Source of the DNA: Bacteroidota bacterium
Lineage (GTDB): Bacteria; Bacteroidota; Bacteroidia; UKL13-3
Direction: 5' to 3'
Length of the DNA stretch: 45,819 bases
Assembly: GCA_947491825.1 (NCBI GenBank)
Contig: CANLLM010000006.1
Coordinates: forward strand, 1-45,819
The translations under genes and the position numbers were made by a program. Every line of letters begins with the position of its first letter. The first letter of the stretch is position 1. Below are positions 24,095 through 27,454 of this stretch, piece after piece. The notes below the pieces were generated by a model. That model saw only the letters and a list, made by a program, of their open reading frames with translations. It did not search any database and was not told the DNA's origin.

Positions 24095-24126
24095 CAAAAA
24101 AACCCCGTTATTGCTAACGAGGTTTT
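24095..24126 (-). terminator. Intrinsic terminator after rplT
   Basis: On the minus strand a 12-bp stem (24126-24115 with 24110-24099, one G-T pair) closes a 4-nt loop and runs into a T tract to 24095. It ends the thrS-infC-rpmI-rplT unit. Confidence 0.8.
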
Positions 24127-24158
24127 GATGTATATCGTAAACCGGCTTGGTTAATAAA

Positions 24159-24506
24159 TTATTTTTTTACTGAATCAACTACAGCTTTAAAAGTTTCAGG
24201 GTGATTCATTGCTAAATCAGCAAGAACTTTACGGTTTAAACCTAGATTACTCTTAGCCACTAGTCCCATAAATTGAGAGTAAGATAAGCCTTCCAAACGT
24301 ACACCTGCATTGATACGGGTAATCCACAAGCTGCGGAAATTGCGTTTTTTGGTTTTTCTATCGCGGTAAGAAAAAGCCAATGCACGATCAATGGTGTGCT
24401 TGGCAATGGTTAATACATTTTTACGTTTACCCCAGTAGCCTTTGGCTAACTTTAGGAGTTTTTTTCTGCGTCTGCGAGACGCTACTGAATTTACTGAACG
24501 AGGCAT
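24159..24506 (-). CDS. rplT: 50S ribosomal protein bL20
   Basis: The 115-residue product begins [20 protein letters not shown] and contains [20 protein letters not shown] and [20 protein letters not shown]. These are unmistakable for bL20, which binds 23S rRNA early in large-subunit assembly. In other bacteria bL20 represses its own operon by binding mRNA. Here a 131-nt spacer separates it from rpmI and holds a possible pseudoknot. It is last in the operon. Confidence 0.98.
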
Positions 24507-24590
24507 AATTTGTTTTTTTTGAACTTAAGCGACTCAACTTTGGGTTGAATTCTTTTGAGCTATTGTTCGGGTTAAAATTAAAATAAACCA

Positions 24591-24620
24591 AGGTAATTTT
24601 AAGGCTTACCTAATTGCCTT
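24591..24620 (-). promoter_or_regulatory. Candidate H-type pseudoknot in the rpmI-rplT spacer
   Basis: Read on the minus strand: stem 1 is AAGGC (24620-24616) with GCCTT (24605-24601). Stem 2 is AGGTAA (24611-24606) with TTACCT (24596-24591). Loop 1 is AATT and loop 3 is AAAA, with no nucleotide between the stems. These lengths are ideal for a stacked H-type pseudoknot. A further hairpin-forming stretch (24528-24575) lies nearer to rplT. By analogy with bL20 autoregulation elsewhere this could be a repressor site. That function is inferred and unproven. Confidence 0.35.
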
Positions 24621-24637
24621 TTACTTTTAGCGGAAAA

Positions 24638-24838
24638 TTATTTACCGATTCCAAGTAAGTGTTTAACCAATCCCATATCGGCATCGCTAACTACAACCAT
24701 TTTGGTTAAGCCGCGTTTTTGCTTAGTGGTTTTTTTGGTTAAGATGTGATTTTTGAATGCTTGCGCACGTTTAATTTTACCACTAGGGGTTAATTTAAAG
24801 CGCTTTTTCGCAGCACTGTTAGTTTTCATTTTAGGCAT
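24638..24838 (-). CDS. rpmI: 50S ribosomal protein bL35
   Basis: The 66-residue basic product has the bL35 pattern: [20 protein letters not shown] at the start, then [20 protein letters not shown]. It is a small structural protein of the large ribosomal subunit. It lies 50 nt after infC and 131 nt before rplT, in the order conserved across bacteria. Confidence 0.98.
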
Positions 24839-24888: not shown

Positions 24889-25512
24889 TTACTTGGCAGC
24901 TTTACCTTTTGGAGCCATCAGTAAAAACATCTTTTTACCCTCCAACTTTGGTAACTGCTCTACTTTACCTATCTCAGATAGTTTTTGTGCAAATTGAAGC
25001 AATAATACCTCACCCCTTTCTTTGTAAACAATAGCACGTCCTTTAAAAAAAACGTAAGCACGTACTTTGTTTCCCTCTTGCAAAAACTTTTCGGCATGTT
25101 TTAATTTAAATTCAAAATCATGCTCGTCTGTGTTAGGTCCAAAACGAATTTCTTTAATCTCTTGCTTAGCAGAATTCGCTTTTAATTCTTTTTTCTTTTT
25201 CTTCTGCTCGTATAAAAACTTTTTATAATCGGCTATTTTACATACCGGAGGTTCTGCGTTTGGCGAAATCTCAATTAAGTCTAACTCCAGCTCATTGGCA
25301 ATGCGCAAAGCATCTTGTATGGTTACAATACCCGGCTCCACGTTGTCGCCTACTAACCTTACTTCACGAGCACGAATATTTTCGTTTAACTTATGTTCAG
25401 GTTCTAGCGATTTACGTCCACGTGATATAAATCCTGGTTTCAAACCGTTGTTCGGACGTTGTCCCGGTCCTGCTGGTCTGCCGGGTGTAATTGGTGTGTT
25501 TGGTGCTGCCAA
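24889..25512 (-). CDS. infC: Translation initiation factor IF-3
   Basis: The 207-residue product has a proline/glycine-rich N-terminal extension of about 40 residues. The IF3-N domain follows ([20 protein letters not shown]), then a lysine-rich linker ([20 protein letters not shown]) and the IF3-C domain ([20 protein letters not shown]). IF-3 binds the 30S subunit and checks the start codon. The start is TTG at 25512-25510, 4 nt after the thrS stop. No ATG precedes the conserved domain in this frame, so a non-ATG start is required, as is common for infC where it permits autoregulation. Confidence 0.95.
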
Positions 25513-25516
25513 ATGT

Positions 25517-27454
25517 TTAGTTATTTATTTTTACTTGTTCTTTAAAATAGCTTACAAAATCCTCTAGTTTTAATTTCCCTACTTCCTCTCCTCCGTGCTT
25601 ACGAACAGAAACCGCTTCTTCTAGCATTTCTTGCTCACCAACCACCAACATAAATGGGATTTTCTTCACTTCAGCATCTCTAATTTTTCTTCCCACTTTC
25701 TCATTTCTATCATCAAGCGGGCCGCGAATATCTGCTTTATTAAGCACATTCACAACTTTTTGCGCGTAGTCATGATATTTTTCACTAATAGGTAATACAG
25801 TAACGGGTTCTGGAGTTAACCAAAGAGGAAAATTACCTGCACAATGCTCTATCAAAACTGCCACAAAACGCTCTAGAGAGCCGAATGGTGCACGATGTAT
25901 CATTACTGGGCGGTGCTTTTGGTTATCACTTCCGGTATACTCCAACTCAAAACGTTCCGGTAAATTATAATCAACCTGAATAGTACCTAATTGCCACTTA
26001 CGACCTATGGCATCTTTAACCATAAAGTCTAACTTCGGACCGTAAAATGCTGCTTCTCCTAACTCCACAACCGTAGTTAATCCTTTTTCAGCTGCAGATT
26101 CGATGATAGCTTGTTCTGCCAATGCCCAATTTTCATCAGACCCAATATATTTAACTTTATTTTCAGGATCTCGTAAAGATATTTGCGCTGTGTAATCTTT
26201 AAAATCTAAAGCTTTAAAAACATAAAGCACCAAATCAATTACCTTAATAAATTCATCTTTCACTTGGTCCGGACGACAAAACAAATGTGCGTCATCTTGC
26301 GTAAAACCACGAACACGAGTTAAACCATGTAATTCGCCTGCTTGCTCGTAGCGGTATACCGTACCAAACTCGGCATAACGTACCGGTAAATCTTTATAGG
26401 ACTTAGGTGAAGCTTTATATATCTCGCAATGATGTGGGCAATTCATTGGTTTTAAGAAAAATTCTTCCCCTTCACGAGGAGTGGATATTGGCTGAAATGA
26501 ATCAGCACCATATTTTTCGTAATGACCTGAAGTGATGTATAAATTTTTGTTACCAATGTGTGGCGTTATAACAGGCAAATACCCCGCCTCCATTTGTGCC
26601 TTTTGCAAAAACTGCACTAACTTTTCGCGCAACATAGCTCCTTTCGGTAACCACAATGGTAAACCCATGCCTACTTTTTCAGAAAAAGTAAACAATTCCA
26701 TTTCTTTGCCCAATTTACGGTGATCACGTTTTTTAGCCTCTTCAATCATTGCCAAATGTTCATCTAGCTCTGATTTTTTAGTGAAAGTTACCCCATAAAT
26801 ACGCGTTAACATTTTGTTCTTTTCATCACCACGCCAATATGCTCCGGCAACACTCATTAGTTTTATTGCTTTTATAAAACCAGTGTGTGGCACATGCGGA
26901 CCACGACATAAATCGGTGAAGTGACCTTGGCTATAAAAGGTTATACTACCATCATCTAAACCTGCTAATAAATCAAGTTTATACTCATCGCCTTTTTCTT
27001 TGAAATAGGCAATGGCATCAGCTTTACTAACTTCTTTGCGACTAAAGACATTTGATTGTTTGGCCAATTCGGTCATTTTATCTTCTATGCGTTTAAAGTC
27101 TTCGCTCGAAAATTCTTTACCGCCAAAATCTACATCATAATAAAATCCGTTTTCAATTGCAGGTCCAATTCCAAATTTGGTTCCAGGGAATAGCAATTCA
27201 ATTGCTTCCGCCATTAAATGTGCAGAAGAATGCCACATGGTTTGTTTGGCTTCTTTGTCATTCCACGTTAACAAGGTTAATGTAGCATTAGTTTGAATAG
27301 GTCGGGTAGCATCCCAAACCTCACCATTTACTTTAGCTGCTAATACATTGCGGGCCAAGCCTTCGCTAATTGATTTGGCTACATCTAAGGCGGTTGCTCC
27401 CGATTCATACGAACGAACGGAACCGTCAGGTAACGTGATATTAATATTGCTCAT
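25517..27454 (-). CDS. thrS: Threonine-tRNA ligase
   Basis: The 645-residue class II synthetase charges tRNA-Thr. Domains in order are TGS (about 1-61), the editing domain with [17 protein letters not shown], the catalytic core with [11 protein letters not shown] and [20 protein letters not shown] (motif 2), motif 3 in [13 protein letters not shown], and the anticodon-binding domain from about residue 540. All are complete. It heads the thrS-infC-rpmI-rplT unit. A TACTTTG sequence ends 10 nt before the ATG, so its leader is probably very short and cannot hold an E. coli-style operator. Confidence 0.97.

Follow-up and report, generated by a model that had tools for sequence, protein, structure and literature searches.

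A candidate bL20 operator between rpmI and rplT in Bacteroidia with likeness to helices 40/41 of 23S rRNA

The spacer between rpmI and rplT in a Bacteroidota genome probably carries a translational operator that bL20, the product of rplT, would bind because the mRNA mimics rRNA; judged from sequence, we assign this reading a probability of roughly 0.83. The spacer holds a conserved, covarying RNA structure at a fixed place before rplT, whose architecture matches that of a 23S rRNA junction and of the leader of the corresponding E. coli operon. The stretch of DNA analysed (45,819 nt; referred to as the window) had previously been annotated from its letters alone, and this sequence-only reading had proposed a Bacteroidota bL20 regulatory RNA before rplT, with the weight on a pseudoknot. 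The general idea stands, in the form of a class-wide, covarying element resembling helices 40 and 41 (H40/H41) of 23S rRNA, whereas the emphasis does not: the pseudoknot is found in two genera only, and the conserved candidate operator is the hairpin built from GAAC/GTTC and TCAAC/GTTGA.

The locus and the parts of the element

The genes thrS, infC, rpmI and rplT follow one another in this order on the minus strand, separated by gaps of 4, 50 and 131 nt (Table 1); the length of the last gap compared with the other two, pointed out in the sequence-only reading, was confirmed on the sequence. A probable intrinsic terminator 3' of rplT (24106-24134, minus strand; AACCTCGTTAGCAATAACGGGGTTTTTTT) would close the operon. 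The start of infC (window position 25512) is apparently a rare codon: TTG is used in the window's family, and Flavobacteriaceae with their relatives seem to use ATA (loci L001-L024, L064, L072 and L128 were looked at along with the window). In E. coli, the rare start codon AUU of infC is the basis of IF3 self-control, to which the rare starts in Bacteroidia may be a parallel.

Table 1. Features of the operon and of the rpmI-rplT spacer (window positions)
Feature	Position	Strand	Basis or remark
thrS	25517-27454	minus	
infC	24889-25512	minus	
rpmI (bL35)	24638-24838	minus	
rplT (bL20), 115 aa; candidate regulator and target	24159-24506	minus	homologues found
rpmI-rplT intergenic spacer, 131 nt	24507-24637	minus	
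H-type pseudoknot AAGGC-AATT-AGGTAA-GCCTT-AAAA-TTACCT, candidate second bL20 site	24591-24620	minus	lineage-restricted
Possible linker hairpin GGTT...AACC, between pseudoknot and operator	24570-24589	minus	GGTT enrichment
Candidate bL20 operator, class-wide: irregular hairpin preceded by AACCC and followed by an A-rich tail	24507-24573	minus	model R1 match, covariation
P1 5' strand GAAC, pairs with GTTC	24565-24568	minus	single-sequence fold, covariation
P2 5' strand AGC, pairs with GCT	24559-24561	minus	counterpart of 23S G1002-U1004; covariation, 23S descriptor
Unpaired TCAAAAGA, AA near-invariant	24551-24558	minus	counterpart of 23S CCCAAAGU
P3 5' strand ATTCAAC; the hairpin varies and corresponds to H41	24544-24550	minus	90.8% of P3 cells paired
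P3 3' strand GTTGAGT	24532-24538	minus	covariation
Single unpaired C opposite CAAAAGA loop	24531	minus	C also in E. coli 23S
P2 3' strand GCT	24528-24530	minus	fold, covariation
P1 3' strand GTTC	24521-24524	minus	single-sequence fold, covariation
A-rich unstructured tail before rplT ATG, 14 nt	24507-24520	minus	tail length across relatives

In the window, the element reads AACCC GAAC AAT AGC TCAAAAGA ATTCAAC CCAAA GTTGAGT C GCT TAA GTTC AAAAAAAACAAATT ATG, the last three letters being the start of rplT. The minimum-energy fold of this lone sequence already yields the operator hairpin, with a modest overall z-score of -1.39. Of the second element that had been proposed near rplT, the pairings GAAC/GTTC and TCAAC/GTTGA are present and conserved, whereas the alternative CTCAA/TTGAG is not a conserved pairing. 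An alternative register of P1 is better for the Flavobacteriaceae, in which the 5' strand of P2 is GGC instead of AGC, but worse for the whole set. The distance from the foot of the hairpin to the rplT ATG is tightly limited, amounting to 14 nt in the window and to 14-22 nt (median 16) across 115 sequences.

Conservation and covariation across Bacteroidia

Spacers between rpmI and rplT were taken from 49 further genomes, sampled in the class around the window, and from 80 genome-contig records. Their upstream part varies freely, whereas the 60-70 nt adjoining rplT are conserved; the sequence-only reading would have counted strongly divergent spacers beside these genes against its proposal, and such divergence is confined to the upstream half. 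Nearly all spacers follow the consensus AACC(C/A)-NGNN...-GC-NNNNAAGN-[hairpin]-C-GC...-AAAAA...ATG.

Two alignments were used to assess the pairing. In A1 (36 sequences, aligned by MAFFT without structure), the three-stem structure, which was chosen after seeing the alignment, pairs 85.4% of the cells compared with 62.7% in shuffles, and 126 cells are changed on both sides compared with 48. The larger alignment, A2 (85 sequences), leans towards the hairpin because it was fitted to a covariance model of that structure; within it, doubly changed cells number 333 versus 123 in shuffles. The A2 covariation score, 0.733 versus 0.241 in shuffles, drops sharply once either strand is shifted by one to three columns against the other. 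The middle pair of P2 is G-C in 82 of 85 sequences, mostly with a C-G beside it, and the neighbouring pairs covary, as do all five modelled pairs of P3 (A2). The pseudoknot is much less well supported than this hairpin next to rplT.

The covariance model R1 has the element as its sole match in the window (61.7 bits, E = 1.4e-11) and, at E-values up to 0.1, finds matches in 120 of 247 whole Bacteroidia genomes. The position relative to rplT could be checked for 111 of 122 R1 matches, and in 108 of these the offset from the start of rplT is between -2 and +6 nt. A second model, R2, run without filters on 20 sampled genomes that bear rplT and are negative for R1, gave 13 matches, located by inspection at the same place; at least 13 of the 20 thus hold a divergent copy, and the true share of Bacteroidia with the element is therefore likely to be about three quarters or more. 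Carriers include Flavobacterium, Chryseobacterium, Tenacibaculum, Cellulophaga, Pedobacter, Mucilaginibacter and Fluviicola.

In a phylum-wide sample, every match listed falls in the window's class, and in 19 genomes from other classes, whose spacers are mostly short, no element was seen by eye. Some rplT-bearing Bacteroidia have no recognisable element (L033, L043, L047, L048, L152, L161, L164 and L206); several element-less loci have short spacers of 4, 21 or 57 nt, which suggests losses or another mode of control. One contig filed as a Bifidobacterium breve metagenome-assembled genome (L114) carries a flavobacterial-type rplT with the element, a probable case of binning contamination. In a Mucilaginibacter (L060), a Cobalamin riboswitch (108.5 bits, 1944-2144) is located shortly downstream of rplT.

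Likeness to 23S rRNA and to known bL20 leaders

In architecture, with a stem, an internal loop, a 3-bp stem, CCAAAGN, another stem and a single C, the element matches 23S H40/H41, in which CCCAAAGU stands between the 3-bp stem and the following stem; the element differs in having a short, freely varying hairpin in place of H41. This likeness was expressed as a descriptor, hand-written from the mRNA elements after the 23S resemblance had been spotted. It requires a 3-bp stem with a central G-C pair, followed by 7-12 nt that end in AA(A/G)N, a further stem of 4 bp or more, one C and the 3 bp that close the first stem; outside these come a short internal loop and an outer stem. In its strict form, the descriptor has a single match in the E. 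coli 23S rRNA (2904 nt), at G1002-C1153 (CCAGC-TAA-GGT-CCCAAAGT-...-C-ACC-GAA-GCTG), which we take, by the established numbering, to be the H40/H41 junction. Shuffled 23S sequences yield 0.15 matches on average, and a chance match at H40/H41 is therefore unlikely. The H40-41 junction is the reported binding place of the bL20 C-terminal domain (PMC6962249).

A relaxed descriptor that accepts U in place of the single C also finds the homologous site in two 23S sequences of Bacteroidota from the window's family, in which U stands where the operator has its single C; it further gives a second match in the E. coli 23S rRNA, an unrelated match in a more distant 23S locus and 0.82 matches per shuffle. 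The strict descriptor with loops of up to 60 nt has two matches in 91.6 kb (both strands of the window), one of which is the element. On the coding strand of the E. coli thrS-infC-rpmI-rplT region (1521 nt), it matches once, at -96 from rpmI (AAACAG-TAA-GGC-CTTCAAGT-AGCA...TGTT-C-GCC-TTT-GTTTC), inside the leader on which bL20 acts (PMC10931766, PMC6962249). Since the descriptor was written after the 23S resemblance had been noticed, this match in the E. coli leader is the cleaner test. Two G-C pairs and an AA dimer are retained in known bL20 leaders (PMC7247131); the element set likewise shows two consecutive G-C pairs with an unpaired AA, although the register partly differs and the window has A-U as its first pair. 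R1 and R2, tried as direct finders of H40/H41, did not recognise 23S rRNA because AACC and the A-rich flanks dominate the models; the similarity to 23S rRNA rests on a short module, not on a covariance-model match.

The bL20 operator of the E. coli infC-rpmI-rplT operon consists of an irregular-stem site and a long-range pseudoknot before rpmI. The Bacteroidia element shares with it the operon, the regulator gene, the core module matched by the same strict descriptor, the arrangement of pseudoknot and hairpin (in the window's genus) and the expected translational control. It differs in its position between rpmI and rplT, where it would directly control rplT alone, whereas the E. coli operator controls both rpmI and rplT, as well as in its pseudoknot, which is local and H-type where that of E. 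coli is long-range, and in the absence of a Shine-Dalgarno context. The L20_leader RF00558 of Firmicutes and Thermotogales resembles the element in its ligand bL20 (a candidate here) and its 23S mimicry, but it acts before infC by transcription attenuation. The comparison with Rfam advised in the sequence-only reading found no RF00558 match above the gathering score at the spacer; whole genomes gave only sub-threshold matches elsewhere, and even at E-values of up to 5, no relevant Rfam family matched the spacer region. The candidate L20 r-leader of Deltaproteobacteria, described by Eckert and Weinberg in 2020, mimics the same 23S site by GG/CC and AA but has another scaffold and belongs to another phylum.

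The 2020 leader survey lists L20 leaders in Gammaproteobacteria, Firmicutes and, newly, Deltaproteobacteria, as well as L13, S4, S15 and S16 leaders in Bacteroidia or Flavobacteria, with no bL20 leader there (PMC7247131). In a survey of 2013, the L20 motif was limited to Firmicutes and Thermotogales, and its authors urged re-examination of lineages with apparently missing leaders (PMC3766115). A Bacteroidota L20 leader is absent from the main texts of PMC7247131, PMC11109978, PMC6847099 and PMC9723704, and we found no earlier description of a class-wide bL20 switch in Bacteroidia in openly readable main texts. The element adds a bL20 leader candidate, with an rRNA-like module as in E. coli, for the class of Flavobacterium, Chryseobacterium, Tenacibaculum, Pedobacter and Mucilaginibacter. 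Being a small RNA, it also lends itself to asking whether such rRNA mimics are passed down or arise anew, and how feedback operates if 30S landing relies on unstructured A-rich sequence. A wider picture can be offered only tentatively: a class-wide operator with an E. coli-type core module may have been moved to rplT alone in a setting without Shine-Dalgarno initiation, with a compact pseudoknot as a second bL20 site in two genera, that is, an independent double mimicry of rRNA.

Proposed regulation and alternative readings

The element probably regulates rplT in the following manner: bL20 in excess of free 23S rRNA would bind the hairpin (24568-24521), as the latter reproduces the H40/H41 junction. 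With its foot ~14 nt 5' of the rplT ATG, the bound structure would reach into the stretch where the 30S subunit is expected to land, so that initiation on rplT would be blocked. The upstream genes infC and rpmI would not be covered directly and, unlike in E. coli, would escape direct control. Bacteroidota initiate without Shine-Dalgarno pairing and need unstructured A-rich upstream sequence, as reported for Flavobacterium (PMC6847099). We infer from the conserved element that bL20 binds, that the control is repressive and that the step affected is translation initiation. Transcription attenuation is unlikely, because the hairpin is followed 3' by a run of A, not of U.

The dependence of Flavobacterium initiation on unstructured A-rich upstream sequence (PMC6847099), which the tail of the element fits, would also suit a hairpin that only keeps the A-rich start region exposed and in this way sets basal translation, or one that regulates rplT in response to a ligand other than bL20, such as bL35, another r-protein or an RNA chaperone. 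A plain insulator, however, would not need an invariant unpaired AA, a single C and a fixed 3-bp stem, all of which match the bL20 site of 23S rRNA and the E. coli leader, and we consider such explanations improbable. The location between two genes of the same operon might also point to a site of mRNA processing or stability that sets different message levels for rpmI and rplT; this explanation is more improbable still, since it would account neither for the conservation of a 23S-like internal loop nor for the fixed 14-22 nt to the ATG. Binding of bL20 to the hairpin is the preferred reading.

The weakest step of the proposed mechanism concerns the H-type pseudoknot upstream, possibly a second bL20 site in the window's genus and its neighbour. 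Its letters, as given in the sequence-only reading, were found exactly at 24620-24591 of the minus strand. Taken by itself, the window sequence does not make it significant, as a compact H-type pseudoknot with at least 11 bp turns up in 9% of the spacer's dinucleotide shuffles. Only the window's genus and one neighbouring genus have the pseudoknot, and its absence from most operator-bearing genera, together with the shuffles and a stem 1 (GGC/GCC) that is essentially invariant or register-shifted and has no covariation support (21 sequences), favours an independent regulatory RNA, responding to a small molecule or otherwise, or a chance fold, either of them not part of the operator. This explanation has an even chance. 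On the other side, the pseudoknot is kept in 13 of 13 parsed genomes of the neighbouring genus, and both genera retain stem 1 (AAGGC/GCCTT or GGCC/GGCC), stem 2 and the A-rich loop, with stem 2 being GGATAA/TTATCC in one locus of the window's genus (L005). Of the two stems for which a covariation test had been suggested, stem 2 covaries, with 12 doubly changed cells compared with 4.5 in shuffles and four of five pairs changed on both sides (21 sequences), whereas stem 1 hardly varies. No reusable copy occurs elsewhere in five genomes of the genus, each matching genome having one pseudoknot, at the spacer only. Its invariant letters are GGC, GG, GCC, AA and CC; a GG/CC pair and an AA dimer are reported as common to bL20 leaders and 23S rRNA (PMC7247131), and E. 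coli uses two bL20 sites, one of which is a pseudoknot (PMC10931766). Given these invariant letters and the two-site precedent, the odds that the pseudoknot is a second, putative bL20 site are about equal to those that it is not.

GGTT occurs within 45 nt upstream of the operator in 68 of 106 spacers, compared with 37.5 expected, and GGTT...AACC pairing, which in the window would lie between the pseudoknot and the operator, might form a further helix.
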